Source: Mycobacteroides salmoniphilum (lineage in GTDB: Bacteria > Actinomycetota > Actinomycetes > Mycobacteriales > Mycobacteriaceae). Taken from it: DNA of 64,000 nt. The notes under the pieces were generated by a model. The model ran no database searches, was not told where the DNA came from, and saw only the letters and a program-made list of their open reading frames with translations. Where the stretch lies: assembly GCF_004924335.1 (NCBI RefSeq), contig NZ_CP024633.1, positions 3,224,001-3,288,000 of the forward strand. Direction: 5' to 3'. The translations under genes and the position numbers were made by a program. Shown here piece by piece: positions 36,200 through 62,438 of the stretch. How positions within the stretch are numbered: position 1 is the stretch's first letter; each line of letters opens with the position of its first letter.

Positions 36200-36223
36200 G
36201 GCATCGCCGGCATGCCAAGGAAT

Positions 36224-38143
36224 TCACGTGCAGAAGACACCACCCGGCTCTGCCGCTACACAACCCGCTGCAACACCGGCGTAGGGCACATCACCAAAAT
36301 TGGCGGTCACAGTGAGCTTCTTGTCGCCGAAGACTGTCCGCTGGACTAGTCGATCTGGAGTGAGCCATTCGAACGTGGACATGGGCTCAGTCCCCGCGAT
36401 GTCGCTCAGCGTGGAATAGAACGCCTGCAGGGCCGCCAAATCCGGCCCTTCACGGTCGAGTGTGTCCGTATTCAGCGCGTACATCATCGGAGTCACATTG
36501 AGCAGCGTGAGAAGGGCCCGACTTCGCTTCTCGGCGGGAAGTTTGTTGAAAGGTAGCTCCCACCTATCAGTACTGATCAATGAGTCGTGAAACACGCTCT
36601 CATATAGCGGAATTCGATACTTCGGATTGAACATGGTGTCGTGCAGTACCGGTGGGAGCTGAACTTGCTTGAAGAAGAACTGAGGTCCGTCTTCCCCCCA
36701 ATACTCTCCCCAGGTTCCTTTGTCTCGCTCGAGAGGCCACAAGGCGGAAATGATGGGTGTGCTGGATCCGTGACTGAACGCGACGGCGCTCGCGGCCCAG
36801 GAACCGACCGTTTCGGAACCCAGCACATACTGTTTGCCAATCTCATCGAGCCGTTTCAGGCGGTTCTGCCGGTCCTGGGCCTGTGTCATCGGGTGGCCCG
36901 GCGTGTAGTCATCGAATGTCGTACCGGTCGCGTCGACGTCCACAAAGACACTGTTCACACCGTTGGCCGTGCGTGACCGAACTCGCGCTGGCACGAGGTC
37001 GGGTATCTGGGCTAAGGCTTGCGAGCTGAGGTAGCAGCCGCGGGCTTGAAAACCGTTGACGGTCTTTCCTTCTGCGGTGTGGACGCAGGCATCGGGGTAG
37101 ATACCCGCCGACCAGCGCGACCCGGGATTATCGATCTCCCCGGCTGGGTCTTGGGCATTGTCAAAGGACACATATGGCCCTACCAGATACCCGGCGTCCT
37201 TCGCGGCCTGGACCGCCGCGGAGTTCGCTGGCGGGTCCCCGTCGTCGTCATATCCGAGCCACATTCGCCGGACCCCCAACGCATGCAGTCGCAGCACTGT
37301 TTCAGCTCGACGCCCGCCCGCCCACGTGTATGCGTGAAAAGCGCCGATGAGCTTTTGTACGTCCGGATTCGCCTTAATCTTGTCGGCCAGGGTGACGAAC
37401 TTGTTCTCCGCTTGGAGCAACGTACGGTAGTTCCGTGCCGCGGCTGTCGGCGATCCATCGGTTATCGCCATAGACACGGAGTAGTTCTGAGTACCCCGGC
37501 TCTTGCTGAATGTGTGAGACACCGTGCCCACGAGATTCGAGTCCAGCGTCAGCGTCGAGCCCAGGTCCGTGGGTACTACATAGCTAGCCCCGGTACCCAC
37601 GTAGGAGTAGCCCAAGATTGGCATGGCCAATTCCTGCATGGAATGGTCGCCCACGACACCCACCTCGGGGCTGGTCCAGATGTGATCATGAACTGGGATG
37701 CTCACGCCCTCCCCAAGAGGCAATTGCAGTTCAGTGGCATCGGCACCCGCAATGGGCCATGCCAAGTTCTGCTCGCGGTCACTCGTCACATCGATAACGA
37801 GCCCCGCACCGCGGGCAGCCGCGGTAAACGTGAATCCGCTTTCTGGATAGCTCCAGTTCACGGAACCTCGATCGTCTATCTGAACTGCGCCCGGCACACC
37901 GATACGTGTCGCGGTCGGGCGTGAAAGCTCCGCCGCTCCGTTCACGCGGAGGTCCCTGAGGTCCAACTGCAAAACGCCTTCCGCGACAGGGAAAGTAACC
38001 ACCGATCCATCACCGGTAATGGTCGGTTTTCTCGAACGCGGGCCCGGAGAGACACACGCTACGGCCGCAATCAGCACGACAATTGCGACAACAAGTGCGC
38101 CATCCCGCGCCGCCGCACCACGTGCGCGTGGATCAGAGATCAT
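36224..38143 (-). CDS. Secreted/lipoprotein glycoside-hydrolase-like protein
   Basis: 639 residues. A signal or anchor helix DGALVVAIVVLIAAVACVSP ends in a possible lipidation Cys. A beta-rich N-terminal domain follows, then a TIM-barrel-like region with GVRRMWLGYDDDGDPPANSA, NGVNSVFVDVDATGTTFDDY and a C-terminal beta region. The pattern is like GH101/GH129-type and DUF5696 glycosidase-like proteins, but I cannot assign a family. Its ATG lies within the last bases of the LAL regulator gene, so the two are coupled. In the cluster it might process a glycosylated precursor outside the cell, confer self-protection, or be unrelated cargo. Confidence 0.65.
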   Translation of the reverse strand: MISDPRARGAAARDGALVVAIVVLIAAVACVSPGPRSRKPTITGDGSVVTFPVAEGVLQLDLRDLRVNGAAELSRPTATRIGVPGAVQIDDRGSVNWSYPESGFTFTAAARGAGLVIDVTSDREQNLAWPIAGADATELQLPLGEGVSIPVHDHIWTSPEVGVVGDHSMQELAMPILGYSYVGTGASYVVPTDLGSTLTLDSNLVGTVSHTFSKSRGTQNYSVSMAITDGSPTAAARNYRTLLQAENKFVTLADKIKANPDVQKLIGAFHAYTWAGGRRAETVLRLHALGVRRMWLGYDDDGDPPANSAAVQAAKDAGYLVGPYVSFDNAQDPAGEIDNPGSRWSAGIYPDACVHTAEGKTVNGFQARGCYLSSQALAQIPDLVPARVRSRTANGVNSVFVDVDATGTTFDDYTPGHPMTQAQDRQNRLKRLDEIGKQYVLGSETVGSWAASAVAFSHGSSTPIISALWPLERDKGTWGEYWGEDGPQFFFKQVQLPPVLHDTMFNPKYRIPLYESVFHDSLISTDRWELPFNKLPAEKRSRALLTLLNVTPMMYALNTDTLDREGPDLAALQAFYSTLSDIAGTEPMSTFEWLTPDRLVQRTVFGDKKLTVTANFGDVPYAGVAAGCVAAEPGGVFCT

Positions 38144-40907
38144 CGTTCACCCGTTCGCCACCTAACACGTCGCATACATCGGGTGGCGCGATTCTTGCCA
38201 GATCCACCCGCGACCGAATCTCCAGCTTGCGGTATATCTGGCGTAGATGGAACCCCACAGTGTGGGCAGAGATGAAGAGCTCTCGCGCAACCTGGCGATT
38301 GGTGAGACCTCCGGCAGCCAGGCGCGCCACTTTCTCCTCTGCAATGGTCAGACTCGCCCAACCCGTGGATGCACGCGTCGTATGACTCCAATGCCGCCGT
38401 CGAACACCGAGATCACGCAGCTGATGCCGAACCCGGGCAGCGTCCCAGTCCGCGCCCAGCTCCACATAACCTGCCATCGCAGCACTGAGTTCAGATACCG
38501 CGGTCGCGCGATCCACTTCTGCCAGCAACACACCGAGGTCCTCTGTTGCCGAAGCGTGCAACCAGGGGTCTATGTATTGTCCCGCAAGTGATTTGACAGC
38601 ATTGGCATCACACTCCATCAGGGCCCGGCAATGGTCCGCAACTACCGCCAAAAATGGTTGATCCGGGTTCATATCGCTGAGCGTCCGGGAGGTCCGCACG
38701 ACATCCCGAGCGAAGGACTCGTGCCCGACACTCCGCGCTAGCCGCACGCACCACACGGCAGACGCAGGGTCTGCGATCATCAGTTCCAGGCTGTCGGCAG
38801 CGTCGAGCAGAGCTCTCAGCGCCGTCCCAGGCTCACCACCGGCCGCATTGACCTGAGCACGGATCAGGCAGCGCAGCCCCCACAATGGATGTTGTTGATT
38901 GTGCGGGAGACATTCGTCGAGGCGTTGCACGCACTCTGATGCCGACCCTAGCTCGCCACGGCGCAGCGCGGCCCATGCCAACAACGCGTGCAGCCATGGC
39001 ACGGGCAATTGCATCCGGTAGCGATAACACAAACTCAACGCATCGGAACCGTCCACTTCCGCTCCGGCCATATCACCCCTGGCAAGTCGATACCATCCAC
39101 GCAGCGACAAATACACCGGGACCAACACTTCAGTCTTGCTGGACTCGATGACCCGGCCAAGGGCCTCGATCGCGCTGACGGCGGCGTCCAATTCCTGCAT
39201 CCTCAACAGCATCCAGGCCTTCTGCCATAGCGGGTAGGAATCAAAGGAATCCCCAGATTGGCGTTGCCACATGCCAACCGATTCCTCGATAGCACATAAC
39301 GCATCGGAAACCTTGCCCCGACGCCAGGACGACGTTGCACGTATTGACATCGCCGCCATCGTCATAGAGGCAGGGCACGACGTCGAATCGGAGAGGATCC
39401 CCTCCGCGGTTGCCTCGACGGTCTCGATGTGCGAAAAGAAGGAAAGCGCAAGACGCACCAGCTGGGTACGGCGTTCGGCCCGCCCCTCAACAGGACCTCG
39501 CGAATTCGATGCCAGCACAAACGCTCCATCCGTCTCGCCGCGCAGCGCCATCGCCGTAATCAGCCCAGCCCGAACCCGGTCAACCATGACGCCAGCTCCC
39601 TCCCACGGGTGGCGCATGACTTGCTCAGCGATTTCGGCCGCTCGAGCTAGGCTCCCGGACCGGAGCAATCCAACCACCGCAATGCCCGCCATCCTTAGGT
39701 GCACACGACTGCCCTTCGGCGCCTGCTCCATTCCTCGTAGCGCCAAGGCTGCGGCCGACTCCGGCGCAGACGACATCAATCGTTCAGCGATCCGGGCGAT
39801 AATCCCAACCGCCTCCGCATCGTTCGCGTGTCCGTGTAACAAATGGACAGCGGACCTCTCTGTATGCCCACCGTTTCGCTCGACCAGCATGGCCGCCGCC
39901 TGACGATGCAGTAGCGGGACCAAAGGAGCCGGCACGCTTCCTAGCACCGCGCGCCGGATCAGATCATGCGGAAAGGCGAAGTTCACCGCTTGAGCGACGA
40001 GCGAACCTGCGGCCACGGCCTCCGACAGCGGTGCCACCAACTCCGCGGGAGAACATCGGAGCATCTCCGACAAGTCCTCCGGGCAGAAAACCCGGCCCAG
40101 AACGGCAGCCACCTGCAACGCCTCCCGACTTACTCCCCGCAGCCTGGAAAGGCGATCTGACACCAGAGATGCCAAACATGCTGGTGCCATGATGGTTTCA
40201 CCCGCAAAGGGGTCAGGCTTCTCGGGTATCAGCTGCGCAACACCATGATTGACCTCGATCGCGCCGTCCTCTTTCAAGCCCTGAATCAGTTGCACCGTGA
40301 CCTGCGGAGTGGCATCAAAACACTCGCACAACCTGACAAGATCCTGACTGGGCTCCGCCCCGAGCAGATCACCGATGACTTCGGCAATCGCCGACTCGGA
40401 TAGCGCACCCAGTGGCTGGAGCCACTCGGCCCGCCCATCTCGGCTCATGGCTTTGAAGAAGTACCCGCCTAGATCATCCAAACCGCCTGGCCTCAGCGCA
40501 AATTCCCACACCAACGGGACACCGGCAAACCTATCAACCAAACCTAGTAGCGCTTCCACGCTCGGGGTGTCGACCCATTGGAGATCATCGACGGCCACCA
40601 AAACCGGTCCCCGCCTCAGTAGATCCTTGATTTGAGACTCGAGCTGACAGGCTCGCGTCATCGACGACGTCATAACCCGGGGCCGTTCCGGGAGCCCATC
40701 GACCACGGCGAAACCGCGGCGGTCGGCTAGCACCATTGACTCGAGCAGTAGCCGACTCTTGCCGCTGCCGACCGGCGACTCCAAGAGAAGTATTTTGCAG
40801 CGCCGTGTCTTTGCCGCAGCATCGAGTATGTCGACGATGCGCCTTACGTGATCATTGCGACCGCGCAGCGGCCGTAACGACTGTGAACTCCATCTAACCG
40901 TCTCCAT
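38133..40907 (-). CDS. LAL-family LuxR transcriptional regulator (RebR-like)
   Basis: 924 residues with an N-terminal AAA ATPase domain: Walker A ESPVGSGKS at about 43-51 and Walker B VLVAVDDLQW at about 102-111. A long TPR-like helical middle follows, and a C-terminal LuxR helix-turn-helix: LTIAEEKVARLAAGGLTNRQ, VARELFISAHTVGFHLRQIY, RKLEIRSRVDLARI. Large LAL regulators activate many actinobacterial clusters, including RebR in the rebeccamycin cluster. It lies 199 bases downstream of the NRPS gene on the same strand and is coupled to the glycosidase-like gene. It is the only regulator in the island and therefore the likely pathway activator. Confidence 0.92.
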   Translation of the reverse strand: METVRWSSQSLRPLRGRNDHVRRIVDILDAAAKTRRCKILLLESPVGSGKSRLLLESMVLADRRGFAVVDGLPERPRVMTSSMTRACQLESQIKDLLRRGPVLVAVDDLQWVDTPSVEALLGLVDRFAGVPLVWEFALRPGGLDDLGGYFFKAMSRDGRAEWLQPLGALSESAIAEVIGDLLGAEPSQDLVRLCECFDATPQVTVQLIQGLKEDGAIEVNHGVAQLIPEKPDPFAGETIMAPACLASLVSDRLSRLRGVSREALQVAAVLGRVFCPEDLSEMLRCSPAELVAPLSEAVAAGSLVAQAVNFAFPHDLIRRAVLGSVPAPLVPLLHRQAAAMLVERNGGHTERSAVHLLHGHANDAEAVGIIARIAERLMSSAPESAAALALRGMEQAPKGSRVHLRMAGIAVVGLLRSGSLARAAEIAEQVMRHPWEGAGVMVDRVRAGLITAMALRGETDGAFVLASNSRGPVEGRAERRTQLVRLALSFFSHIETVEATAEGILSDSTSCPASMTMAAMSIRATSSWRRGKVSDALCAIEESVGMWQRQSGDSFDSYPLWQKAWMLLRMQELDAAVSAIEALGRVIESSKTEVLVPVYLSLRGWYRLARGDMAGAEVDGSDALSLCYRYRMQLPVPWLHALLAWAALRRGELGSASECVQRLDECLPHNQQHPLWGLRCLIRAQVNAAGGEPGTALRALLDAADSLELMIADPASAVWCVRLARSVGHESFARDVVRTSRTLSDMNPDQPFLAVVADHCRALMECDANAVKSLAGQYIDPWLHASATEDLGVLLAEVDRATAVSELSAAMAGYVELGADWDAARVRHQLRDLGVRRRHWSHTTRASTGWASLTIAEEKVARLAAGGLTNRQVARELFISAHTVGFHLRQIYRKLEIRSRVDLARIAPPDVCDVLGGERVNDDL

Positions 40908-41106
40908 CGCAACCTCTTGTCATGATCAACGTGAAGCAAGTAGAACAAGGCTGCAATCCGCCCTACCCTACAGAAAGAGGCCATGATCAACCGTAATCGC
41001 AAAATCGGGGGCCTGGCTTACAGCAAGTTAAGAAGGTCACCAGACCGCGCAATTCAACCCAGCTGTGCACCTTGTCAACTCATCGAACAAGGGCTCGTGC
41101 CCTTCG

Positions 41107-44100
41107 TTACCTACTACTCACTGTTACGACGAAACTGGACACCACATCGGCCCACAATTCGGCCAACTCTTGCACCTCCCTCACCTCAAACAGCAACGCG
41201 GGGAATCCGAAATCACCAATCATTCGACCGTTGATCACAACCACGGTGATGTCCAAGGCCGCGGCAGCGGGTAGCGCTGGGTCCGGCATGGATTCATACA
41301 GTCCCTCGACAATTGGCTTCCACGCGCCGGCATCCTTTGTGTCGGTCTGTATTTGACCGAGATAGTTAAAGCAGATCCGGCCCGGCATTTCATCGGGCAA
41401 CTCCTGTGCGGTGTCTCGGTTCATATACCGAAGTAGCCCATACCCAACACCGCCGTCCGGGACCCTTTGCACCCGCTGGGCGACGGCCGATACCACGGCG
41501 GCGAGGTCGGCACCATCCACTGAAATGTCCTCTAAACCGCTGTCGGATAAGGTAACCCGCAACGGATATATCGAGTTGAACCAGCCGACAGTCCGCGATA
41601 AGTCGGCCCCGGCGAGTTCCTCTCGGCCATGGCCTATCAGCCGCAGAAGTACCGAGGGCAGTACCACACCTCTGCGGCCCTGCCATCGCGCCACAGCGAC
41701 CGCCAATGCGGCTATCAAAATCTCGCCAATTTGAGTCTTCGACACCATCGGCACATAGCCAAGAACTGCCGAAGTCGTATCGACATCAATGAAGCTTTGC
41801 ACCCGCTGGATTTTCGAGGTGGTGTCGGCCGTCGGATCGAGCGCCCGAACCCCCGGCAGCGGGTCCGGTCCCTCAATCATCGACTTCCACATCGCAAGTT
41901 CCGCCACTCGAGACGCGGAGTTCGCCTCAGCATGCAAGGCGTGCAACCAGGTTCGCATCGAGGTACTGCCGGGCGCCGGGGCCGCCGGTCGTCCCGCCTC
42001 GACATCCACCCATGCCGCCGCCAGGTCCTCCATCACGATCCGTGATGACACTCCATCGAAAATCAGATGGTGCGCCACCAGCAACAGACTGCCCGCGCAA
42101 TCAGATCCGAAGTCAAGCCACACCGCTCGAATAACCTCGCCCGTAAAAGGATTCAACTCGCTTACAGCCGCTTCCCATGCGTCCTTCGGGATGCCTTGAT
42201 CACTCTCGACGTGGACCCGGCTCAGCAATGCGTCAACATCTATCGAGTCTGCCGCCTCGGCAATCATGCGCCATTCCTGATGAGACCCAACCTCTATGCG
42301 GCACAACCGCGCCCGCAGCATATCGTGCCGCTCGATGACCGCCGCGAGCACTGACACGAGCGAGCGCCGATCGATACCTTTGGGCAATCTGATGAGCGTG
42401 GATAGATGGAAACGGCTACAGCCGTTGCCGCCCAACTCCATTAACCATCCGGCCGCGGGCGACAACTCCATCTCACCCACACCCCCGCCAGAGACTTCTT
42501 GCAGAGCCGGGACTGTTGCTTCACTCGTGATGAACTGAACCAATCGCTTTACTGTGCGTTTCTCGATCACGTCGCGAGAAGTGAACACCATGGAGAGCTT
42601 GCGTGCCCGCGCCACGATCTGAGTCGAGAGAATGCTGTCTCCGCCAAGTGCGAAGAAGTCATCGTCGATACCGACCCGATCCACTCCGAGCACTTCGGCA
42701 AATACACCGCCCAGAACCCGCTCGGCTTCGGATGTGGGAGCACGATATGTCTTCTGCACCATCGACGGAGCGGGCAGTCCGGCTCTGTCCAGCTTTCCAG
42801 ACGCGGTCAACGGCCACTCATCGAGCACCACAATCACCGACGGCGCCATGTACTCGGGCAGCCGCGCCCGGGCGAACTCGCGAACCGCGTCAGCTAAGAC
42901 GCCAGCCATCGGCTTGTTCGACGACGGTGTGACAGAGCGACCGGACGCGCCGGGGACGTAGGCGTCGACGATGCATCGTGCACTCAGCGCAGACTTCTGC
43001 ACGAAAACGGCCTCCATGCATCCCCGTCGCGCAGACCACGTGACCGCGCAGGAGTAGCCGCTGTCGGCCGCCACGGTATGGAGATCGTCCGGCAGCATCC
43101 CTTCAGCACGTCCGTACGCGAGGCCGTCCTTGCGATCTGGCAGTCCCGCTACCCCTTTCGCGTTCTTCGCGAGCTCCTCGACCGCGCGGACCTCGGTCAA
43201 CAGCCCCCGATGCGGAATGCCTGCCACTCGGACGCATTCCATACTTCGCCCGAGGAGTAGCGCTCGGATGGTATCCACGTCGACATACTCGACGTTCGTC
43301 GCCTTCCTCACGGACACAGTAGGTTTAGGTAACTTATGCAGGACCACGTCGTATCTGTAACGCGTCAGTTCGTTGATCGAGCTGCCCCGTTTGAGTTGGA
43401 TGTCGTGCTCGATAACGCCGGGGAACTCATGGGCAATGTCGGAGAAGAAGTGCGGTTCCACCAACAGTTCGCGCTGGTTCGACAATCGCCTCCGCACGCG
43501 CCGACGTACATCGCCGAAATCACCATCATTTCCCCGCGTCAGTTCCACTCCGGTCTCGAGCTCCTCTAGGTATCTCAGACTTCGCACGTCACCGAGGAAT
43601 AGCGCACCTCCTGGCGCGAGGAGCCGAAGAGCCTCATCGATGACACGCCGGAGGTAACACGCACTGGGGAAATACTGCACTACTGAATTGAGTATGACCG
43701 TGTCAAAGGATCCGGTGGCGTAGTCACCCAATTCGTCTGCCGCACCGACAATGAGATGGACATGTCTCGCCCAACCCTCGTTCACATCGCGCAGCCACTC
43801 CTCAAGGCGGGCAACGGTTACGGGAGAGAGATCCGAGCCACAGTAGACCTCACACAGGGGGGCAATCTTCGACAAAATCAGTCCCGAGCCAACGCCGATC
43901 TCCAGTACTCGCCGCGGGCTGAGCTCGCGAATGCGGTCCACCGTTAGGTCGCGCCATTCACGCATCTGATCCAACGGGATCGGAGCTCCCGTGTAGCTGC
44001 TGGTCCAGCCCGTGAAATCGTCGTCGGCCGCTGAGCCGAATCGTGGCGACTGATGTTGTGTCCCATTGCCATACAACTCGTCGTAGACGTCACGCCAACG

Positions 44101-50123: not shown

Positions 50124-50147
50124 TCTCAGTACGGTCCGTTCCGGATC

Positions 50148-50867
50148 TCAGGCCGCATCCCAGGCAGCCGCAATCAGAGTGGGTATCAAGTCATGAGTGA
50201 TGCGCACACCGGGTAGCGCAGCGGTGTAGTCGCGGAGAAACTCCGAAACGGTTTGCGGCGTAATGACTGATCTCATTTCCAGCCACCGCGGTTGAAGCAT
50301 CATACGCAGGGCAGAGGCCGCCAGTTCTGCGCTGGCGGATGCCTCGTAGATGATGCGAGCATTGTCGAAGGCATAGGCGTATCCGGCGCCGGTGTCCGCC
50401 TCGCCATCGGGACGTGTGACATCGACAATCAACAATCGTCCACCGGGCGCGACGAGTTCGCGCAATCGCGGTAGCACCGTAGCCGCCGACCCCATGTGGA
50501 ACACCGTGTTCACCGACATCACTAGATCGAACAGGCCATCAACATCTGGGGACAGCTCGAGTGCGCTGCGGCATTCGTACCGGATCGGCACCCGGCTCTC
50601 TTTGACGGCCGCCAAATCGAGCATGCGCTGGGCGACATCCACACCCACCACATCGTCGTAATGTTCAGCCAGCATGACGCAGTTATTGCCGGTACCGCAA
50701 CCAACGTCGAGCGCGCGGCTGCCTACGGGCAGATGCTCGACAAGCCATGCACGAATCGGACTGGTACGTGCGTCCCTTACTGCCGTGAAACTCTCGTACA
50801 TCTCGGCGAGATCATCGAAGTATGGCGTTTCGTCGGGCATCAAGTCCTTGGGATTACCAGCGGTCAT
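50148..50867 (-). CDS. Class I SAM-dependent methyltransferase
   Basis: 239 residues with a canonical SAM-binding fold: GSRALDVGCGTGNNCVMLAE (motif I), VVGVDVAQRMLDLAAVKESR, and LRELVAPGGRLLIVDVTRPD (post-motif). It ends 24 bases before the RebD-like start and leads that operon. It may methylate the bisindole nitrogen or an oxygen introduced by the monooxygenases, as tailoring methyltransferases do in staurosporine-type pathways; the position is unknown. Divergent from the FAD monooxygenase at 51052. Confidence 0.88.
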   Translation of the reverse strand: MTAGNPKDLMPDETPYFDDLAEMYESFTAVRDARTSPIRAWLVEHLPVGSRALDVGCGTGNNCVMLAEHYDDVVGVDVAQRMLDLAAVKESRVPIRYECRSALELSPDVDGLFDLVMSVNTVFHMGSAATVLPRLRELVAPGGRLLIVDVTRPDGEADTGAGYAYAFDNARIIYEASASAELAASALRMMLQPRWLEMRSVITPQTVSEFLRDYTAALPGVRITHDLIPTLIAAAWDAA

Positions 50868-50931
50868 ACCGCGAAGGTACGTCCGGCTTCATCCGATGGC
50901 ACTGAGCTGAGCCCCATCGCGATAGAAACTA

Positions 50932-50964
50932 TGCGTATGCGTGGTGTGTATCGCTCTATACGCA
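50932..50964. promoter_or_regulatory. Inverted repeat in the divergent cluster promoter
   Basis: TGCGTAT (50932-50938) and ATACGCA (50958-50964) lie 19 bases apart in the 184-base gap between the divergent methyltransferase and FAD monooxygenase genes. This could be the pathway regulator's site; the evidence is only symmetry and position. Confidence 0.35.
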
Positions 50965-51051
50965 GGATGAGCGCCTGGGCAACCGTGGGAATACTGGCAG
51001 TACCGCAGGAATCCCCTTACTACACAACAGGTTCAATGGGTGAAATGGGCT

Positions 51052-52698
51052 ATGGAAACTGGCTATGATTGTGACGTTCTCGTCGTGGGGGCGGGTCCGA
51101 GTGGGCTATGCACCGCCTTGCTGCTCGCGCAGCACGGAGTGCGCGTGCGGGTCATTGATCGAAAGCCCGGGCCCGTGCAGCAATCTCGTGCGACCATTGT
51201 GCACGCCCGGACACTTGAGTACTTCGACCGTCTCGGAGTCGCCGAACACGCCGTTACCTGTGGCCTGCCGATAACTCATGTAGCCATTCACGAGAACGGC
51301 CGGCATGTGGGCGAGTTGCCGCTGGCCGGTAGAGGAACAGCGGCTCGGACCAGGTTTCCCTATGCACTCGCCCTAGAACAGTTCGCGACCGAGAGGCTTC
51401 TCGTCGCCGCGCTCGCTAGGCATGGCACAGACGTTGAATGGTGCTGTGCCGTAGAAGATATCGCCGAGATGGCTAACGGCGTGCATGTGGGCATTCAGGG
51501 CCCCACGGGTGTCGGCAGTATTTCTGCTCGCTGGCTCGTTGGCGCAGACGGGGCCAGCAGCACAATCCGGCGTCTTACCGGTCAGGAATTTCACGGCGAA
51601 ACATACACACAGAAGGGGCTTCTCGCCGATGTCGACATGGAGGTTGACCTTGGTATCAAGAAGATGCGCCTGAACCTCACGCGTGGCGGATTCGTGGGGG
51701 TGCTTCCACTCGCGAGTGGGCACTACCGGCTTTTCGGTGTGGTACCGCCAGACTTTCACCGCGGGCCAGAAGCGGAGATCCTGTCACACGATGCCTATGC
51801 GCGACTCGACGACAGCGACCTGCGACACTGGTTCGAGTCCTACTTCTCGGTCGAAGCGAAGTTGCAGACTATCGTGTGGGCGGCCATGTTTCGATTTCAC
51901 AGTCGCATCAGCAAGCGTTTCCGTGTCGACCACTCCTTTCTCGTTGGCGACGCCGCCCACATTCACAACCCTGCTGGAGGGCAAGGGCTCAATCTCGCAG
52001 TCGGCGACGCGGTGAACCTCGGATGGAAGCTCGCACAGGTTGTCAAGGGCGAGGCGCCGGCGTCGCTGCTGGAAACCTATGAAACCGAACGTCGTCCGAT
52101 CGCCGCCGCCGTGTTGGCTCGCACTGATATCGGATTCAAGCTAGAGACATCAACCAGCCCCATGGCGTTGTGGATGCGAACGCACGTGGCAACTCGTGCA
52201 ATCGGCCTTGCCTGCCGCCTGCCGCCGGTACGCAAGTTGTTCTTTGACATGTTCTCTCAGTTATGGATCAATTACCGGACTAGTACTGCCATCGATCGCT
52301 CGGACTCCCCCGGCCGTGGCCCTCACCCCGGCGATCGGGCACCCTATGCGACTCTCATCAGTCCCCGCGGCTCGGCCCGCAGCGTCATGGCGCTTACGCA
52401 TCCACCGAACTATCACGCTCTCTTGATCGGAGCCATCGATCCATGCCAAGCTGCCCACCTGAGGAACCTCTTGACGGCTCGATACACCGCCGAAGTCGCG
52501 ACGCATGTACTTACCGAAAACGAAACCGAGGTCTGCCGCGCATATCGGGTTACCAAGAACCCCAAGCTGGTCCTGGTGCGTCCAGACGGACATATCGCCG
52601 CCATCGTCCATCCATTCAACTGGGACACGCTCACGTATGTGCTACGGCATCTCGACGAGGCGCTGCTCCGCGTCGATCAAGACCGCGGCGAACACTAG
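51052..52698 (+). CDS. FAD-dependent monooxygenase (PheA/MhpA/RebC-like fold)
   Basis: About 548 residues from the ATG at 51052; an in-frame GTG at 51040 is possible. The FAD motif is DCDVLVVGAGPSGLCTALLL, the DG motif WLVGADGASSTIRRLTG, and the third motif HSFLVGDAAHIHNPAGGQGL. A C-terminal thioredoxin-like region (LVLVRPDGHIAAIVHPFNW) is present, as in RebC and phenol-hydroxylase relatives. It differs clearly from the RebC ortholog in this cluster, so it probably performs an additional hydroxylation. It is transcribed opposite to its neighbours and overlaps the P450 stop by four bases. Confidence 0.9.
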   Translation: METGYDCDVLVVGAGPSGLCTALLLAQHGVRVRVIDRKPGPVQQSRATIVHARTLEYFDRLGVAEHAVTCGLPITHVAIHENGRHVGELPLAGRGTAARTRFPYALALEQFATERLLVAALARHGTDVEWCCAVEDIAEMANGVHVGIQGPTGVGSISARWLVGADGASSTIRRLTGQEFHGETYTQKGLLADVDMEVDLGIKKMRLNLTRGGFVGVLPLASGHYRLFGVVPPDFHRGPEAEILSHDAYARLDDSDLRHWFESYFSVEAKLQTIVWAAMFRFHSRISKRFRVDHSFLVGDAAHIHNPAGGQGLNLAVGDAVNLGWKLAQVVKGEAPASLLETYETERRPIAAAVLARTDIGFKLETSTSPMALWMRTHVATRAIGLACRLPPVRKLFFDMFSQLWINYRTSTAIDRSDSPGRGPHPGDRAPYATLISPRGSARSVMALTHPPNYHALLIGAIDPCQAAHLRNLLTARYTAEVATHVLTENETEVCRAYRVTKNPKLVLVRPDGHIAAIVHPFNWDTLTYVLRHLDEALLRVDQDRGEH

Positions 52699-53918
52699 TA
52701 ACGGCAGAGCATTAGCGACGACGGGCCATGAAAGACCATGTCGCCTGGGTACTCCACCGTGTCGACGGCAAACTCGCCGAGTACGTCAAGCAACAGACCG
52801 AGGCCGATCTCAATCTCGGCGCGAGCAAGTGCTGCACCGAGGCAATAGTGAATTCCGTGCCCAAACCCAACACCGCACCCCGCGCCGCGATCGAGGCGCA
52901 GGGCATCCGGATCAGGAAAACGTGCGGGATCGCGATTGGCCGCACCCAGTACCGCCACCACCCGAGTGCCGCGGGGAATGTCGTTCCCTGCCAAGGACAC
53001 GTCGCGGTACGCCCAACGAGTCACCGACTGCACCGGTCCATCGAATCGAACCAGCTCCTCGACCGCTGAGGTCGGAACACCCTCCGAAGCCCGCAGCAGG
53101 CTCAGCGCCTCCCGATCTTCGCCGAGAGCCAGGACCGCCTTGCCGAGTAGATTCGTCGTCGTTTCGTGTCCTGCCGACATGAGATGTACACAGCTAGAGG
53201 AGATTTCATCGGCAGAAAGCGCGCCATCCGACGCCATCAACGACACCAGGTCGTCTTTGGGGGCTCTCCGCCGCTGTCTCGCCTGCGAGGCAAAGTACTC
53301 AGTAAGTTCCGCCGCCGCGGTGTCAGCGAGCCAGAACACTTCAGCGCCACTCGCGAACCTCCGACTACTGCTTACAGCCTGAATAGCTATTACTCTGTCT
53401 CGTAACCACTTCCAGTCCGATGTTGGCACACCTAACAACTCTGAGATCACCAAAATCGGCAACGGTGCCGAAAAAGCCTCTACCAGATCGAATTCCGATT
53501 CATCGGCGCAGCGTGAAAGCAGCGCGACAGCAATCTCAGTAATTCGTTGCCGTAACCCCGCAACTACCGCAGGAGAGAATCGCCCAGCGAGTACAGACCT
53601 TAGTTCGGTGTGCCGGGGCGGGTCGAGAAACACCAGCCAGCTCTCCACCATATTCCGCAGGGCGACACACTCCGCCGGGACCAGGCCGGCGGCCCCGGAA
53701 TGACCCGCCGTGGCCGCGCGGCGCCCAAAACTCCTACTAGAGAGAGCCTTCGCCACCTCGTCGTAGCCGAGTAAATAGTGCGTCCCGTCTGCGCCGCGAT
53801 GGATCGTTGCCACATCACGGTAGCGCCGGTACACCGGATAGGGGTTCGCGACTTCGGCGGCCGACCAGCCGGTTAAGGCAAATGGCGGCAGCGTGTCACG
53901 GTTCACGATTCCGGTCAC
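52695..53918 (-). CDS. staP: Cytochrome P450, StaP/RebP type (aryl-aryl coupling)
   Basis: 407 residues and strikingly StaP-like at the N-terminus: LTGWSAAEVANPYPVYRRYR, then ESWLVFLDPPRHTELRSVLA and APLPILVISELLGVPTSDWK. The I-helix is LMSAGHETTTNLLGKAVLAL, ExxR is in AVEELVRFDGPVQSVTRWAY, and the heme loop is VGFGHGIHYCLGAALARAEI. StaP/RebP catalyse the oxidative C-C coupling and decarboxylation of chromopyrrolic acid to the indolocarbazole core. It overlaps the RebC gene by four bases, so the pair is coupled as expected for partner enzymes. Confidence 0.94.
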   Translation of the reverse strand: MTGIVNRDTLPPFALTGWSAAEVANPYPVYRRYRDVATIHRGADGTHYLLGYDEVAKALSSRSFGRRAATAGHSGAAGLVPAECVALRNMVESWLVFLDPPRHTELRSVLAGRFSPAVVAGLRQRITEIAVALLSRCADESEFDLVEAFSAPLPILVISELLGVPTSDWKWLRDRVIAIQAVSSSRRFASGAEVFWLADTAAAELTEYFASQARQRRRAPKDDLVSLMASDGALSADEISSSCVHLMSAGHETTTNLLGKAVLALGEDREALSLLRASEGVPTSAVEELVRFDGPVQSVTRWAYRDVSLAGNDIPRGTRVVAVLGAANRDPARFPDPDALRLDRGAGCGVGFGHGIHYCLGAALARAEIEIGLGLLLDVLGEFAVDTVEYPGDMVFHGPSSLMLCRY

Positions 53919-55549
53919 CTCGAGTAGACGCCTCGTACTCGTTCGACAAGCTCCTCCGGATTCACCGGAGGCCGCTCGCCGCGCCAGGCGACGTGACCGT
54001 CTGGTCGGACTAGAACGAACCGCTGCGCATAAAGTTCGGCAATATCCCGCTGCCTCTCAGCGACCACCGTCAACGGGACACGCTTATCTGCGAAAGCCCT
54101 TTCCAGCCGCCGAATTCGACCAGATGGCGCAAAACACAGCAATACGAATCCCTTGCCAAACAGATCCAGCGTCGAGGCTCCCGTCGCCAGCCAGGCGTGT
54201 GGAGCGCGTGATCCGGGTCGCGTGCTGGGCCGCATGTCGTCTACGCCGGAAGATGAATGCACCGCAGGGCACACCTCCGAGTCTGGAATCACCAACGGAG
54301 AGTTCTCATATCTGAAACCAAGATGGATATCGGGGGCGTCAAATTCCCTGGCCAGCCCACTGTCAGCGAGTGCGTCCCGGGCACGCGCACGCAACCACTC
54401 ACCGTGTGCGGAGTCATCCCCGAGCCCGTCCGGAACCGTGCGTTTCATTGCCCGGACAAGATTGTGGTTGGCCTCCTCCACTCCCCTGAGCGCGACCGGC
54501 CTACGCTCAACGGCGTAGCTATCGAGTAGGTGGGGCCCGGCCCATCCATCCAATGTGGCGGCTATTTTCCAACCAAGGTCGGCGGCGCCACAGATTCCGG
54601 TGTTCATGCCGAAACCACCAGACGGCGAGAGTGTGTGTGCAGCATCACCGACCAAGAACACTCTGCCGTGACGGAATCTCTCGGCCACGCGATGCACCAA
54701 ATGCCACTCGTTGTCCGACAACACCTCGACCGGAGTGCTAAACGCAATTGCTCTCCTTACCAACGCGTCAGCGTCGTCCATCGCCTCCCGGTCACCCTGG
54801 AGCCCAACGGTCAACCGATAGAGCTCCCGACCGTCAAGCGCTCTCACAGGGAATCTCAGTGCGGAGGACATCATCAGGTAGTAGAAACCCGCAGCAGACT
54901 CCCCCAGCTGCATGCCTAGCTTGGGCGCACGGAACAGAATGTTGCGAAAAGTCTGTGTGCGGTGCAACGGCGGCGCCGAGATACCACACGCATGCCTGAC
55001 GTATGAAGAAGTGCCGTCACACGCGACCATGTATCGCGCATGGATTGTCGATTGCACACCCGTCACGAGGTCAGTGACCCGGCCGAATACACCTTCGTCG
55101 TCCTGATCAAAGCTATCGAGCCGAGTACGTGTCAATATAGGACCCGCGGGAGCGATGCCGAGGTCGGCGTAAAGCAATGGCGCCAGCCAATGCTGCGGAC
55201 AGATCGCATCCGGTTCTGGCGTGTGTTGGTAGTCCGGTCGCGTGTCCATGGTGAATCTACGAACCCGGAACAACTCATGGCCGCCGATCTTGGTGACCCA
55301 CGCGCAATCCAGTGAATGGTCGCCGGGCCAACCGGACTTGCGGATCTTCTCCGCGACCCCCCAGCGGCGGAACAACTCCATCGACCGCGGACCAATGCCA
55401 CTCACTCTCGGATGAGTGACCGTACCGTCGCCAGACTCAACGATCACGAAGTCCACACCGCGCGAGCGTAATTCCATCCCCATGGCCAGTCCTGTAGGCC
55501 CACCACCGACGATCAACACATCGACAGAACGTTCCGCATCCGCAGTCAC
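53915..55549 (-). CDS. rebC: RebC-type flavoprotein monooxygenase
   Basis: 544 residues matching RebC segment by segment: VTHPRVSGIGPRSMELFRRW, WPGDHSLDCAWVTKIGGHEL, HTPEPDAICPQHWLAPLLYA, GRVFLVGDAAHTLSPSGGFG, and FVLVRPDGHVAWRGERPPVN in the C-terminal thioredoxin-like domain. RebC works with the P450 to direct the coupled product to the lactam (arcyriaflavin-type) oxidation state. Whether this enzyme behaves like RebC or like StaC, which give different lactam oxidation, cannot be read here. It overlaps both flanking genes by four bases. Confidence 0.95.
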   Translation of the reverse strand: MTADAERSVDVLIVGGGPTGLAMGMELRSRGVDFVIVESGDGTVTHPRVSGIGPRSMELFRRWGVAEKIRKSGWPGDHSLDCAWVTKIGGHELFRVRRFTMDTRPDYQHTPEPDAICPQHWLAPLLYADLGIAPAGPILTRTRLDSFDQDDEGVFGRVTDLVTGVQSTIHARYMVACDGTSSYVRHACGISAPPLHRTQTFRNILFRAPKLGMQLGESAAGFYYLMMSSALRFPVRALDGRELYRLTVGLQGDREAMDDADALVRRAIAFSTPVEVLSDNEWHLVHRVAERFRHGRVFLVGDAAHTLSPSGGFGMNTGICGAADLGWKIAATLDGWAGPHLLDSYAVERRPVALRGVEEANHNLVRAMKRTVPDGLGDDSAHGEWLRARARDALADSGLAREFDAPDIHLGFRYENSPLVIPDSEVCPAVHSSSGVDDMRPSTRPGSRAPHAWLATGASTLDLFGKGFVLLCFAPSGRIRRLERAFADKRVPLTVVAERQRDIAELYAQRFVLVRPDGHVAWRGERPPVNPEELVERVRGVYSR

Positions 55550-57165
55550 GCCGCACCCCCCTCGCGGCCGCCGCCACGAGCCACGGCTCCCACGCCGATC
55601 GACTGCAGGTAGGCGTCTATCTGGTTCACGGCTTCCAAGCCCGACTCCACCGCACCCTCGATCCAGGCCGGGACAGACGAGCAGTGCTCACCGGCGAAGA
55701 ACAACGCACCCTGGGACGCTGCCGCCAGCACGCGCTCCTCCTCCGCCGTATCTGAATCCTTGCCCCACCTGACCGAAGCCGCGCCCATGCTGAGCGGATC
55801 CTCACCCCATGCCCGCATTACCCTGCCGCACACCATGCTTGGTTGACTGAGCTCTGGATGGATCTTGCAGAGTTCCGCACGGACCATTGCCAAGCGTTGC
55901 TCCCTCGGAATTTGCGCCAGCAAGTCTGCGTCCGGGCCAATGGTGTAGCTGGCCAGTAATGTCGCACCCAGACGAGGATCGCTCTCGACAGGTGGGTAGT
56001 AGGTCTGGCGTACCAGGCCGCCGGTAAACGAACCGCCGCCGCTAATCCCGTCGCGCTCCCAGAAGGCCTCACGGCAATGCAGAGCGATCTTGGTCGCTGC
56101 CCAGTAACGCATATCTCTGATCACCGCCATCTTGTCTGCGGTCATGCCGGACAACCGAATTCTGCGTAGAACCGAGAAGGGCACCGTGCACAGGACGCAG
56201 TGACGTCTGATCAACTCGGTCGCCGTGCCGCGATGTGTCTCTACAAGCACTCCATCGCGCACCACATGCAGGCCGGTGACCCGGCTCCCCCGGTGGATGG
56301 GACCGCGTAACTGCGCCGACAAGCGGAGGGCGATCTGATCGATTCCACCTTCCAGGCGGAACAATGCCGATGATGTTTCGGTGACGACGTCGGCGAAGAA
56401 AAGCTGGAGCCTGGTTCCACATGCGAAGTTCGGATGGTTGGCGAAGAATCGGTTGAGATCAACACGTTCTACGCCACCTCGTGTGACGATGAACGGCGCC
56501 AGATCGATGCGGCGCAGTAGATCGAGCAGCTCGACATTGAGATCCGAGCCAAGACCACGGCGGAACCTATCAGGCGCAATGGCGTTGACACTTGCGGCCA
56601 GCCAAGACGCGCACAACACCGCATCATCTGGATAACGCTGTCTTAGAGAGCTTTCCGCAAGAAATTTAGCTACCAGTATTGGTGATGCGTCTCGCACTCG
56701 TGCGTGACCATCGGGCGTCGCGAGGTACGTGGAATCATCGGAGAACAGGGTCCGGAATTGCCGTACCCGATCGGACAGCCCAAGCTGATCGACCAATTTC
56801 ATTGTTCGGCAGTGCCGGGCCGGGATCCGCATCGCACCAAGTTCGGCGATTGGCCCCTTTCGATCCGACGAGAAACTATGCGTGTGTAAGCGCCCGCCCA
56901 CAGTCGGACGCGCCTCGAGAAGCTCGACATGATGGCCACGCTGTTCCAGCTCATACGCCGCGACAAGTCCGGCGACACCAGCGCCAATAACAGTGACACC
57001 CTGTGACCGGACGATTCCCTTCTTCCCATGTGTTTCACTCGGCGCCAATGTCATCCGCGCATACTCCTCGGGGTTTGGTTTCTTATCCACTTCCCATCCT
57101 CTGTCCAGGCCGGCAGTCTCCACATCACTCATCTGCCCAAACATCCGAGTGGTAGTCGACCGCAA
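55546..57165 (-). CDS. rebO: L-tryptophan oxidase, RebO/StaO/VioA-type flavin amine oxidase
   Basis: 539 residues with an N-terminal extension of about 55 residues; ATGs at 57144 and 57132 are alternative starts. The FAD motif is VTVIGAGVAGLVAAYELEQR, followed by LLEARPTVGGRLHTHSF and IAELGAMRIPARHCRTMKLV. The C-terminal region is GALFFAGEHCSSVPAWIEGA. RebO oxidises (chloro)tryptophan to its imine for RebD. The gene lies 83 bases after the halogenase and overlaps rebC by four bases. Confidence 0.93.
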   Translation of the reverse strand: MRSTTTRMFGQMSDVETAGLDRGWEVDKKPNPEEYARMTLAPSETHGKKGIVRSQGVTVIGAGVAGLVAAYELEQRGHHVELLEARPTVGGRLHTHSFSSDRKGPIAELGAMRIPARHCRTMKLVDQLGLSDRVRQFRTLFSDDSTYLATPDGHARVRDASPILVAKFLAESSLRQRYPDDAVLCASWLAASVNAIAPDRFRRGLGSDLNVELLDLLRRIDLAPFIVTRGGVERVDLNRFFANHPNFACGTRLQLFFADVVTETSSALFRLEGGIDQIALRLSAQLRGPIHRGSRVTGLHVVRDGVLVETHRGTATELIRRHCVLCTVPFSVLRRIRLSGMTADKMAVIRDMRYWAATKIALHCREAFWERDGISGGGSFTGGLVRQTYYPPVESDPRLGATLLASYTIGPDADLLAQIPREQRLAMVRAELCKIHPELSQPSMVCGRVMRAWGEDPLSMGAASVRWGKDSDTAEEERVLAAASQGALFFAGEHCSSVPAWIEGAVESGLEAVNQIDAYLQSIGVGAVARGGGREGGAA

Positions 57166-57248
57166 TGTGAGCGGTGTCTGGACCTTGAACCCACACGTAT
57201 GGAGTGAATCGCTCTCTCACAGCGAGCAGGTGCGTCGGCTCATGTTGT

Positions 57249-58802
57249 TCAGTACATCTGAGCGAGATACTCATGGTGAGTGGGTAATGAATCCCGCAGA
57301 CGTGATGCCTGTTGTGCAAGCAGGTCAAACTCGCGCTGTGCGCGCGTCGCATCGAGATGCCGCATGGCCGTCGACGCCCGCCCCGGAATTCCACCAAGCC
57401 CGAGGAACATGCATACGTACGAGTAGGGCTCGAATCCGTGATAATGAGGGTAGACAGATCCAGCGTCAGGCAGCTTGCTCCGCCATTGCTCGATCCGCTC
57501 CGAGAGAGCAGCGGGAAGCTCGACGCACTTCGTGTCGCGCCAGTACTGGGTGTCCGTACGCGCGGCCAAATAGTAATGAAGAACAAGGAATTCGCGAACA
57601 CCATCCATACATCGATTGATCACGCGGTTGTAGGAATCTCGCAGGCTCTCCTCCCAGTTCTCGTCAGGGAAGTGCTTCACCAACTGCTCTATGCCATGCT
57701 GAATAAAGAAGATCCCGGTTGATTCGAGAGGTTCAACGAACCCACTGGCCAGCCCAATTGCCACACAGTTCCGCGCCCAGCTTCTTCGGCTACGCCCGAT
57801 GCGCATCCGAATGTGATCGGCCTCCAACCCTTCTGCTGCCGGACCGACGAAGTCACGCAGAGCACGCTCCGCGTCCTCGGGACTGCAGTAATCCGCGGCG
57901 TACACATAGCCGGAACCGATCCGACCAAACAGGGGGATGCTCCAGATCCATCCCGCGTCTCGAGCCGTCGCGGTGGTGTATGGCGGCAGATGCCTGCGGT
58001 CCTGGTCGGTTGGGACGCGCAAGGCAACCGCCCGATCATTGAGGAGACTCCCCTGATACGACTCAAATGGCTCCCCCATGGCACGACCGAGCAGCAGGCC
58101 GGCAAATCCTGTGCAGTCGATGAAGAGATCACCCCCGATGCCGCCATGCGCGCGCGTACGCACGTGACTGATCCAGCCACGATCGTCCTGTAGGACATCC
58201 ACGACGTCATCGACTACATGGCGGACACCACGCCGAACCGCAAAGTCTCGCAAGAAATCTGCAAGCAGCGATGCATCAAAGTGATACGCGTACGGAAACT
58301 GCTCCTCCTGTTCGGACAGTGTCGTTCGATATGCGGCGCCCTCCCCGCCAGTGGCCATGTACAACGAGCCATCGAGGCGACGCGGCGATTTCTCGTTGTC
58401 GCACAAGGTACCTGTCAAAAAGCAATCGCGATCGAAGCTATCGGACCTCGGATTGTTCAGCCACCAGTCGGTGAGACTGAATCCGTCGACGACACGCTGT
58501 CGTTCGAAGGGGTGATAGAAATGATGACCCGGCTGGCGCCAGTCCTGAAACCGGATACCCAGTTTATATGTGGCGCAGCATGATGGCATCCACTCGTGCT
58601 CCTCCAGGCCGAGATATTCGAAGAAGTGTCGTATCGTGCTAAATGTTGCTTCGCCGACTCCGATTGCCCCGATCCGCCCCGACTCCACCACTGTCACCGT
58701 GATCCTGTCGCCGAACGCGACCTTCAGATACGACGCAGTCATCCAACCCGCAGTGCCACCACCGACAATCACAACGTCTTCCAGCACAACCATTCTCCTC
58801 AT
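57249..58802 (-). CDS. FAD-dependent tryptophan halogenase
   Basis: 517 residues. It has the FAD motif VVIVGGGTAGWMTASYLKVA, the catalytic Lys at about residue 80 within ATYKLGIRFQDW, the halogenase signature WIWSIP at 285-290 and the segment EPLESTGIFF (Glu at about 360). All residues needed for tryptophan halogenase chemistry are present. It would chlorinate or brominate tryptophan before RebO acts, as RebH does. Regiochemistry (5, 6 or 7) cannot be predicted by eye. No dedicated flavin reductase is nearby. The start overlaps the monooxygenase at 58799 by four bases. Confidence 0.94.
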   Translation of the reverse strand: MRRMVVLEDVVIVGGGTAGWMTASYLKVAFGDRITVTVVESGRIGAIGVGEATFSTIRHFFEYLGLEEHEWMPSCCATYKLGIRFQDWRQPGHHFYHPFERQRVVDGFSLTDWWLNNPRSDSFDRDCFLTGTLCDNEKSPRRLDGSLYMATGGEGAAYRTTLSEQEEQFPYAYHFDASLLADFLRDFAVRRGVRHVVDDVVDVLQDDRGWISHVRTRAHGGIGGDLFIDCTGFAGLLLGRAMGEPFESYQGSLLNDRAVALRVPTDQDRRHLPPYTTATARDAGWIWSIPLFGRIGSGYVYAADYCSPEDAERALRDFVGPAAEGLEADHIRMRIGRSRRSWARNCVAIGLASGFVEPLESTGIFFIQHGIEQLVKHFPDENWEESLRDSYNRVINRCMDGVREFLVLHYYLAARTDTQYWRDTKCVELPAALSERIEQWRSKLPDAGSVYPHYHGFEPYSYVCMFLGLGGIPGRASTAMRHLDATRAQREFDLLAQQASRLRDSLPTHHEYLAQMY

Positions 58803-60034
58803 CTAGCGCAGGCATACAGTGGAGAGCGAACGTGCTCGGGCCCAAACCCGACACCAATCACGTGGCTCATGGACTTTTGCAGTATTTCGAATCGATCGAG
58901 GACTTCCGGGAACCGCGGCTGATGGCTTCCGTTCAAGGCACCATCGATACCGAACCGTTGAACCATGCGTTGCAGCCCTTGGGACAGCACCGTCGGCGCC
59001 CAGCGTCTGTGCTGAACCTTCGCCAAGGCGGCACAGTCAATTTCGATACCAGTAGCCTGCGCCAGCCGTATCGGCTGCCACAGAATATTTGCGGTCGCTA
59101 CCGCGTCCTGTATGGCCAGGTTGACGCCGAGTCCGGCCACTGGCGACATTGCGTGCGCTGCGTCACCGATGAAAAGCAGCCCCGGGACATGCCAGCGTCG
59201 GAGCCGGTCGATACGGCATTGCAACACGCTGACATCTTGAATCCCACGAATATCGTCAACTCGGTCAGCCATGAACGGCACCAACCGCGCCAAGTCCGCA
59301 CGCAATGCGTCTACCCCTTGACGCCGCAGCACGTCGAAACCACCGCGACTGGTCTCATACGACATCTGCCAGTACGTACCGCGATCGGTAGCTCCGAAGA
59401 TCTTTCCCCGCCCTAGACGTACGCAAATGCCCTCTGCGGGGTCTGTCTCCAGCCGGCGGATCCTGAAGAAGACAACATCGAGAGCACACCCGAGATCCTT
59501 GGGTGAGAAGGCAATATCGCGACGCAGCACCGAATGACGACCGTCGGCTGCCACTGTAAGCGCCGCCTCAATGCGAAATTCCCCCGTGCGGTCACGTACC
59601 CTGACTCCCGTAATACGTCCGCGATCGCGGGTCACACCCACCGCCTGAGTCGACATGAGAAGCCGAAAATTGTCGTATCGCTTTGCCTCCCGCGCCAGGA
59701 GCGAAAGAAAATCCCACTGCGGCACCAATGCGATGTAAGGAAAGCGCACGTTCAGCTTATTGAAATCGGCGATGTTGAAACGCTTCCCATTCTGAACCAC
59801 ACCAACGGTCGAGACCTTCTGGTGTGATAGTCGTTCAAATTCTTCGGAGAGACCAAGCTCCGCGATGACTTCCAAAGTAGAGGGATGCACCGTATCGCCG
59901 CGAAAGTCCCGAATGAAGTCTGAATGTTGCTCCAGTACAACTACTTCTATCTCGGCACGGGCCAGCAGTAAGCCCAGCAACATCCCGGCGGGCCCTGCTC
60001 CCACTATGCACACCGTTGTCCGAAAATCGGCCAT
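58799..60034 (-). CDS. FAD-dependent monooxygenase (PHBH/UbiH-like, 411 aa)
   Basis: First gene of the right-hand unit, with GAGGTGGT upstream. The FAD motif is TVCIVGAGPAGMLLGLLLAR, then GDTVHPSTLEVIAELGLS, the DG motif VAADGRHSVLRRDIA and LLFIGDAAHAMSPVAGLGVN. It lacks the thioredoxin-like domain of RebC. It could be a VioC/VioD-like indole hydroxylase or a general aromatic hydroxylase; similar proteins also occur outside such clusters. Coupled to the halogenase by a four-base overlap, so its substrate is probably tryptophan-derived. Confidence 0.88.
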   Translation of the reverse strand: MADFRTTVCIVGAGPAGMLLGLLLARAEIEVVVLEQHSDFIRDFRGDTVHPSTLEVIAELGLSEEFERLSHQKVSTVGVVQNGKRFNIADFNKLNVRFPYIALVPQWDFLSLLAREAKRYDNFRLLMSTQAVGVTRDRGRITGVRVRDRTGEFRIEAALTVAADGRHSVLRRDIAFSPKDLGCALDVVFFRIRRLETDPAEGICVRLGRGKIFGATDRGTYWQMSYETSRGGFDVLRRQGVDALRADLARLVPFMADRVDDIRGIQDVSVLQCRIDRLRRWHVPGLLFIGDAAHAMSPVAGLGVNLAIQDAVATANILWQPIRLAQATGIEIDCAALAKVQHRRWAPTVLSQGLQRMVQRFGIDGALNGSHQPRFPEVLDRFEILQKSMSHVIGVGFGPEHVRSPLYACAR

Positions 60035-61160: not shown

Positions 61161-61201
61161 TGACTGCTCCCATCGGCTCGATGACTTCATGTGCGAATCG
61201 C

Positions 61202-61402: not shown

Positions 61403-61441
61403 CCGAATTCATCTCGACGTTGAGCGGAATCCTCGCCTCGA

Positions 61442-62411: not shown

Positions 62412-62438
62412 ACGGGCCAACGGTACTCAGTTCGTCCT

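Follow-up and report, generated by a model that had tools for sequence, protein, structure and literature searches.

A conserved gene island in Mycobacteroides salmoniphilum probably encodes a chlorinated indolotryptoline pathway with a nonribosomal peptide synthetase in place of an O-methyltransferase

Mycobacteroides salmoniphilum carries, in a genome of one contig (NZ_CP024633.1; 4,776,697 bp), an island of eleven genes related to the clusters for cladoniamide and BE-54017. The DNA analysed, hereafter the window, is the stretch 3224001-3288000 of this contig (64,000 nucleotides). The island lies within about 36202-60244 of the window and is free of inactivating lesions, all eleven frames being open. 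On balance, it probably encodes a chlorinated indolotryptoline pathway of the cladoniamide/BE-54017 kind, the product of which would be capped with (N-methyl)serine by a one-module nonribosomal peptide synthetase (NRPS). This assignment is based on homologs of X1, X2 and M1 that are 60-65% identical to their cladoniamide counterparts, on the clades in which RebD and X1 are found and on a halogenase that is nearest to AbeH. The scaffold kind is already known; the novelty lies in the exchange of the O-methyltransferase M3 for an NRPS, in an altered epimerase domain and in the hosts.

A first-pass annotation of this DNA had reported RebO-, RebD-, StaP- and RebC-type enzymes together, with a tryptophan halogenase and a LAL regulator, in a mycobacterial chromosome and surrounded by mycobacterial genes. 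These genes, their place and their surroundings were read correctly: the four enzymes have full open frames and match well above chance (745, 423 and 677 bits for the RebD, P450 and RebC types), and both the halogenase and the regulator are present. The halogenated arcyriaflavin-like core that was expected as the product agrees with the complete tryptophan-to-indolocarbazole set and the halogenase, but the homologs of X1, X2 and M1 point further. Likewise, the inventory contained the core genes but omitted the NRPS, the two ClaX-type oxygenases, the ClaM1-type methyltransferase and a GH129-family protein.

Among solved structures, the P450 matches 2z3t with 423 bits and the next P450 with 188; 2z3t is presumably StaP, the record itself being named Cytochrome P450. 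The RebC-type flavoprotein matches 2r0c with 677 bits and 4eip, which we take to be StaC, with 668, followed by 181 for the next structure. Equivalents of F216 and R239 were read by eye in its alignment, with a numbering and meaning that we assume to be those of RebC. The RebD-type protein also matches the VioB model, related to violacein, but its 745 bits fall below the equivalog cut-off of 1250, and it is therefore RebD-like rather than VioB. The frame of the RebO-type gene begins some 37 residues ahead of the conserved region. Genome G092, one of the other carriers described below, has a stop in this upstream part (residue 24), which probably places the true start near residue 38. The halogenase matches AbeH (8fov) with 852 bits, followed by the 6-halogenase 5hy5 (763), 5lv9 (746), 6nsd (729), the 5-halogenase 2wet (673) and RebH (373-378). 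AbeH has been demonstrated to be a tryptophan-5-halogenase that makes 5-chlorotryptophan (PMC11840605).

The tailoring genes and their order link the island to the indolotryptoline clusters. All seven proteins compared with the cla locus of Streptomyces uncialis (X2, O, C, P, X1, M1 and D) are 57-65% identical; the S. uncialis halogenase lies outside the fetched locus and is thus not among the seven. Both loci have the block O-C-P / X1 / M1-D, in which the X1-type gene is opposite in strand to its neighbours. They differ in that the window is without M3, F, T and Y, has an NRPS after D and X2 beside the halogenase, and has an additional GH129 gene. The BE-54017 (abe) cluster from environmental DNA encodes counterparts of the cla enzymes (PMC3158105, Table 1), and its halogenase AbeH is the nearest solved relative of that in the window; abe has M2, M3, F, T and Y, and no NRPS is listed for it (PMC3158105). 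In this system, loss of abeX1 halts the pathway at the indolocarbazole and loss of abeX2 at a methylated diol, while M1 methylates the imide nitrogen and M3 a hydroxyl (PMC3158105). In trees of 121 sequences each, both RebD and X1 of the window group with Mycobacteroides, then with Nocardia, and then with Kutzneria and Streptomyces, including ClaD and ClaX1; the RebD thus falls in one clade with ClaD and not outside it, and the X1 in one with ClaX1. The trees were midpoint rooted, with supports along the path of 0.87-1.0 for X1 and, apart from a single node of 0.33, of 0.98-1.0 for RebD. This clade evidence covers RebD and X1, and X2 is assigned by its 63% identity.

Two further loci, in Nocardia seriolae and Nocardia crassostreae, were found in this analysis, and no prior description of them was met. 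Both have the arrangement X2-H-...-O-C-P-X1-M1-D-NRPS without M3 in the locus, as in the window. They keep F and Y, have no GH129 gene in the locus, and the N. crassostreae NRPS is without a methyltransferase domain. Identities to the two Nocardia sets are 60-73% for the eight core and tailoring proteins of the window, and 60% and 56% (the latter over 910 residues) for the NRPS. The gene next to X2 in N. seriolae (L086:9098-10027) encodes a protein that has a chorismate mutase type II domain and could either help to supply aromatic precursors or simply be adjacent. The LAL gene of N. crassostreae (L087:6199-9018) is placed within the cluster, flanked by the genes for the flavin reductase and an alpha/beta hydrolase, unlike in N. 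seriolae and the mycobacteria.

The NRPS comprises condensation (C, residues ~8-430), adenylation (A, ~468-905), embedded methyltransferase (~985-1100), carrier (T, ~1388-1448) and epimerase-like (E-like, ~1470-1914) domains. Its start overlaps the RebD stop (TGATG), and the two genes are neighbours in all three lineages that have the NRPS. The first domains resemble EntF, with 617 bits to model NF007605 over residues 7-910 and a match to 5ja1. A thioesterase domain was not matched in the window NRPS with Pfam. Behind the N. crassostreae NRPS, frames of 250 and 218 aa were considered as a thioesterase and rejected, neither having a Pfam match at 1e-5. The last domain is labelled as condensation by Pfam, a label that was abandoned in favour of an epimerase-like reading on the basis of its motifs and PDB relatives: HHxxxDG, GHGR, VGWF and FNYLG form the set of the E fold, and the best solved relatives are the T-E pieces of PvdL, TycA and GrsA.

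An ortholog alignment of eleven rows was made, containing the window, three further Mycobacteroides genomes (G088, G092 and G169), N. seriolae, N. crassostreae and five database proteins, some of which stand for near strains; two rows (P0125 and P0126) were left out as other NRPSs without an E-type domain. The Glu preceding GHGR is catalytic in studied E domains. In the orthologs, this residue is Ile or Val in all eleven, with no Glu, and the residue after VS is Ser instead of Trp, also in all eleven. Control E domains from N. seriolae, N. crassostreae and Kutzneria, chosen by the author among the matches listed (ten from genome G415, nine from G412 and one from G414), keep both Glu and Trp in 20 of 20 cases. 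The motif was found in the tblastn frames of 19 of them; that of L114 was read directly as EGLGRE, and L105 has ERHGRE. The ratio of nonsynonymous to synonymous substitution rates (dN/dS) against three carriers is 0.19-0.23 for the E-like domain, similar to C (0.20-0.21), A (0.15-0.17), methyltransferase (0.19-0.28) and T (0.08-0.13). Since this constraint resembles that of the rest of the NRPS, the domain looks changed in function and not decayed. All eleven orthologs retain an intact C-domain HHxxxDG and T motif, and the embedded methyltransferase is present in 10/11, N. crassostreae being the exception. The A domains have the code DVWH(I/L/F/V)SLI(D/H) in 11/11 orthologs, which we assume to be of the serine type; we infer that serine is activated.

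The NRPS and M3 exclude each other within the locus in six of six lineages. Mycobacteroides (4 genomes), N. seriolae and N. crassostreae have the NRPS and no M3, and S. uncialis, Streptomyces adelaidensis and Kutzneria have M3 and no NRPS. NRPS matches elsewhere in the latter three genomes are, among those listed, 33-46% identical and lie in other frames. A ClaM3 O-methyltransferase was not found in the window, nor was it matched in any of five Mycobacteroides genomes (the four carriers and G190); M3 is treated as a tailoring gene and not as scaffold-defining. The comparison stayed at six lineages because X1 is rare: at E <= 1e-140 it was observed in 2/401 family genomes, 1/392 Streptomyces and 1/394 class genomes, with the query or centre genome counted in each case. 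Most simply, the NRPS would attach (N-methyl)serine at the position that ClaM3 would otherwise methylate.

From these homologies, we infer the following steps. The halogenase would make chlorotryptophan, probably 5-chlorotryptophan, which the RebO- and RebD-type enzymes would convert to (chloro)chromopyrrolic acid, and the P450 and the RebC-type flavoprotein would close and oxidise this to the indolocarbazole imide. The X1 type would dihydroxylate the imide, the M1 type would methylate its nitrogen and the X2 type would trigger the ring rearrangement. The NRPS would cap the hydroxyl that ClaM3 would O-methylate: it is predicted to activate serine, to N-methylate it (not in N. crassostreae, given its NRPS without methyltransferase) and to pass it from the carrier domain to the bisindole. 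A direct hand-over is suggested because the NRPS has no thioesterase. The transfer would probably be performed by the terminal epimerase-fold domain, in which Glu is lost and HHxxxDG is kept, or else by the N-terminal C domain. If true, such a transfer by a pseudo-epimerase would be a mode of NRPS release undescribed in the literature examined. The conservation of an E-type domain without the catalytic Glu, along with the lack of an O-methyltransferase, leads us to predict both a tailoring step new to NRPSs and a cap new to this scaffold.

Table 1. Features of the island in the window (coordinates in the window; aa, amino acids; percentages are identities; HTH, helix-turn-helix).
Feature	Coordinates	Strand	Details
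Island limits	36202..60244	.	about 24 kb; empty site in 7/7 non-carrier relatives
GH129-family glycoside hydrolase-like protein	36224..38143	-	639 aa; island edge; PF11308 298 bits
LAL-type LuxR regulator, ClaR/RebR kind	38133..40907	-	924 aa; GerE C-terminal HTH; AAA_16 weak, below cut-off
One-module NRPS	41107..46872	-	1921 aa; C-A-embedded methyltransferase-T-epimerase-like; Pfam, motifs, ortholog alignment, PDB T-E relatives
RebD/ClaD-type chromopyrrolic acid synthase	46872..50123	-	1083 aa; TIGR04492 745 bits; PF12902; 62% to S. uncialis ClaD
ClaM1/AbeM1-type imide N-methyltransferase	50148..50867	-	239 aa; Methyltransf_25/11; 65% to S. uncialis protein in ClaM1 position
ClaX1/AbeX1-type flavin oxygenase	51040..52698	+	552 aa; FAD_binding_3; 60% to ClaX1; X1 tree; database search
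StaP/RebP/ClaP-type cytochrome P450	52695..53918	-	407 aa; 2z3t 423 bits; 57% to ClaP
RebC/ClaC-type flavoprotein	53915..55549	-	544 aa; RebC 2r0c 677 bits over 8-541; 65% to ClaC
RebO/ClaO-type tryptophan oxidase	55546..57165	-	539-aa frame; PF01593; 64% to ClaO over 478 residues
Tryptophan halogenase, AbeH type	57249..58802	-	517 aa; PF04820 463 bits; 8fov (AbeH) 852 bits
ClaX2/AbeX2-type flavin oxygenase	58799..60034	-	411 aa; FAD_binding_3; 63% to S. uncialis ClaX2

Several observations weigh against a serine-capped chlorinated indolotryptoline. Relatives of ClaF, ClaY and ClaT were not found in the window (the ClaT query being the C-terminal part only), and the closest flavin reductase in the rest of the genome has 34% identity. 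Y is one of three enzymes unique to these pathways, yet abeY is not essential (PMC3158105). The halogenase is nearer to a 6-halogenase (763 bits) than to the 5-halogenase 2wet (673), so that the predicted 5-position has the AbeH match as its one source. The serine code is a by-eye reading at the PheA positions. The exclusion of NRPS and M3 covers six lineages, and M3-like genes (30-36%) exist elsewhere in both Nocardia genomes, which would allow O-methylation in trans there. An N-terminal C domain of the normal kind would need an acyl donor, which none of the eleven island genes supplies. Finally, no product has been reported for the cluster among the literature matches listed.

The acyl donor is central to an alternative that we regard as possible though rather unlikely, in which the pathway is likewise a chlorinated indolotryptoline pathway, but the C domain joins serine to an acyl group from outside, such as an aryl acid made by another cluster; the resulting acyl-seryl unit would then be attached to the bisindole or released. 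EntF condenses an aryl acid with serine, and the EntF-like C-A part and the C-domain HHxxxDG, intact in every ortholog, would fit such a role. However, the eleven island genes include neither an aryl carrier or loading gene nor a second NRPS, and an N-methylated serine would be a poor acceptor. Since the annotation of the Nocardia loci relied on similarity to known genes and on Pfam for six frames, a partner gene for the NRPS is possible in these loci.

The distribution of the island in relatives bears on whether it is functional. A probe of the right flank matched 11 of 396 genus genomes, the source genome included (E <= 1e-200). Full-length RebD is present in 4/297 genomes, all of which are among these eleven; a fifth match, a 27-bit partial one in G246, was left out of the carrier count. 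In the other seven flank-sharing genomes, the island is absent from the same site, and in all seven the flanks meet with ~4 to 150 unaligned bases between them. The junction letters were inspected in six of the seven; G314 and G326 lay outside the RebD search, so that their lack of the island is read from the site. In G314, the adjoining 60262-62443 is also missing. The first-pass limits (36224..60034) had the right place and are off by 22 and 210 bp from those given by the empty sites. The G+C content is 60.0% in the island, compared with 63.5% and 65.8% in the flanks. A target-site duplication was not found at the ends, the longest shared words between 36150-36350 and 60050-60350 being 8 bases. 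In an unrooted flank tree, the non-carrier G190 groups with the carrier G169 inside the group of G000 (support 91), and the carriers G088 and G092 form a separate group. The island occupies the same site in all four carriers, and the simplest history is therefore either one gain with later losses or a spread through recombination across the flanks. A plasmid origin was also considered: among 36 plasmid records with a RebD relative, none has at least 60% identity, and thus no close mobile source was found.

That the island is a silent relic, intact yet unexpressed under any known condition, is improbable. Such a state would agree with its absence from seven of the eleven flank-sharing genomes, including G190, which groups with carriers, with the broken GH129 gene in G092 and with the lack of a reported product among the literature matches listed. 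On the other hand, pairwise dN/dS values against three carriers, between species-level relatives, are 0.06-0.28 for all genes and the NRPS domains, and the biosynthetic genes of the four carriers are stop-free, apart from the non-conserved upstream part of RebO in G092. Least probable is a plain halogenated, arcyriaflavin-like indolocarbazole with X1, X2 and the NRPS idle or serving another product, since, despite the complete O-D-P-C set, X1, X2, M1 and the NRPS are stop-free in 4/4 mycobacterial carriers and under purifying selection, the same set occurs in two Nocardia lineages, and a plain indolocarbazole cluster would be without the X1 and X2 present here.

The rebeccamycin and staurosporine clusters, in which we know of no NRPS, share the O-D-P-C logic and the LAL regulator with the window. 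They have no X1 or X2 (PMC3158105), whereas the window has both. In addition, RebH of rebeccamycin reaches only 373-378 bits to the window halogenase, and there is no glycosyltransferase among the eleven island genes.

Carriers appear to be few. Named carriers of RebD/X1 include M. salmoniphilum, Mycobacteroides chelonae, Mycobacteroides stephanolepidis, N. crassostreae and N. seriolae, and the RebD database names also include Nocardia sp. IFM 10818. The nearest named database proteins for the NRPS (residues 900-1310) and X1 are from M. salmoniphilum (96%). Three more database proteins, a RebD (78%), an NRPS (68% in the region searched) and an X1 (73%), probably belong to one further cluster, because all are on contigs of length 23,996. 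In the open-licence literature, the matches listed contain no characterised mycobacterial indolocarbazole, in line with the first-pass annotation, and no publication on the cluster in mycobacteria or Nocardia. Bisindole terms are absent from the main texts of the Nocardia genome papers examined, the word halogenase does not occur in the available parts of PMC6418233 and PMC8379129, and a halogenase survey mentions no mycobacterium.

Hosts of the Mycobacteroides and Nocardia carriers are fish, oysters and people. An intact, conserved pathway in animal-associated mycobacteria and nocardiae raises a testable question on phagosome or protozoan acidification. According to a preprint citing earlier work, the V-ATPases of yeast and humans are inhibited by cladoniamides and BE-54017, and cladoniamide A binds the Vo domain of the human enzyme (PMC13252584). 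M. salmoniphilum is described as an agent of fish mycobacteriosis that has not been implicated in human disease (PMC6418233). As the family inhibits V-ATPase and M. salmoniphilum causes fish disease, a host-directed role of the compound is conceivable by analogy. It is a speculative idea with low odds that Mycobacteroides and Nocardia make an aminoacylated indolotryptoline that would act as a eukaryotic V-ATPase inhibitor against host phagosomes or grazing protozoa, with its serine cap set by a 'pseudo-epimerase' acyltransferase domain. At nanomolar doses, cladoniamide B and bafilomycins inhibited intracellular Mycobacterium tuberculosis and Mycobacteroides abscessus; 2 uM in broth had no effect, though the lysate of cladoniamide-treated macrophages inhibited M. 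tuberculosis (PMC12691628). This intracellular inhibition weighs against an easy host-directed story in which the bacterium would benefit. Related clusters are also present in Streptomyces and Kutzneria.

Of the remaining island genes, the LAL regulator is 40% identical to the S. uncialis LAL and 55% to that of N. seriolae. The GH129-like gene at the island edge is present in 3/3 other mycobacterial carriers. In G092 (C1:3487188-3489101, L082), it has one in-frame stop at residue 179, while its biosynthetic neighbours are open. It was unmatched in the fetched Nocardia loci; an unlinked 47% homolog exists in N. seriolae, and the genome of N. crassostreae gave no homolog. A place in the core pathway was set aside on account of the break in one carrier and the lack of a match in the Nocardia loci, and the protein is probably accessory.

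Outside the island, extra unaligned stretches of ~1.8 kb occur beside the site in some non-carriers (L059 and L062), near the equivalents of 61237-61542, and therefore the chromosomal site looks generally variable. Elsewhere in the window, two long minus-strand frames at 8838-12083 and 7785-8822 (1081 and 345 aa) have no Pfam match at 1e-6.

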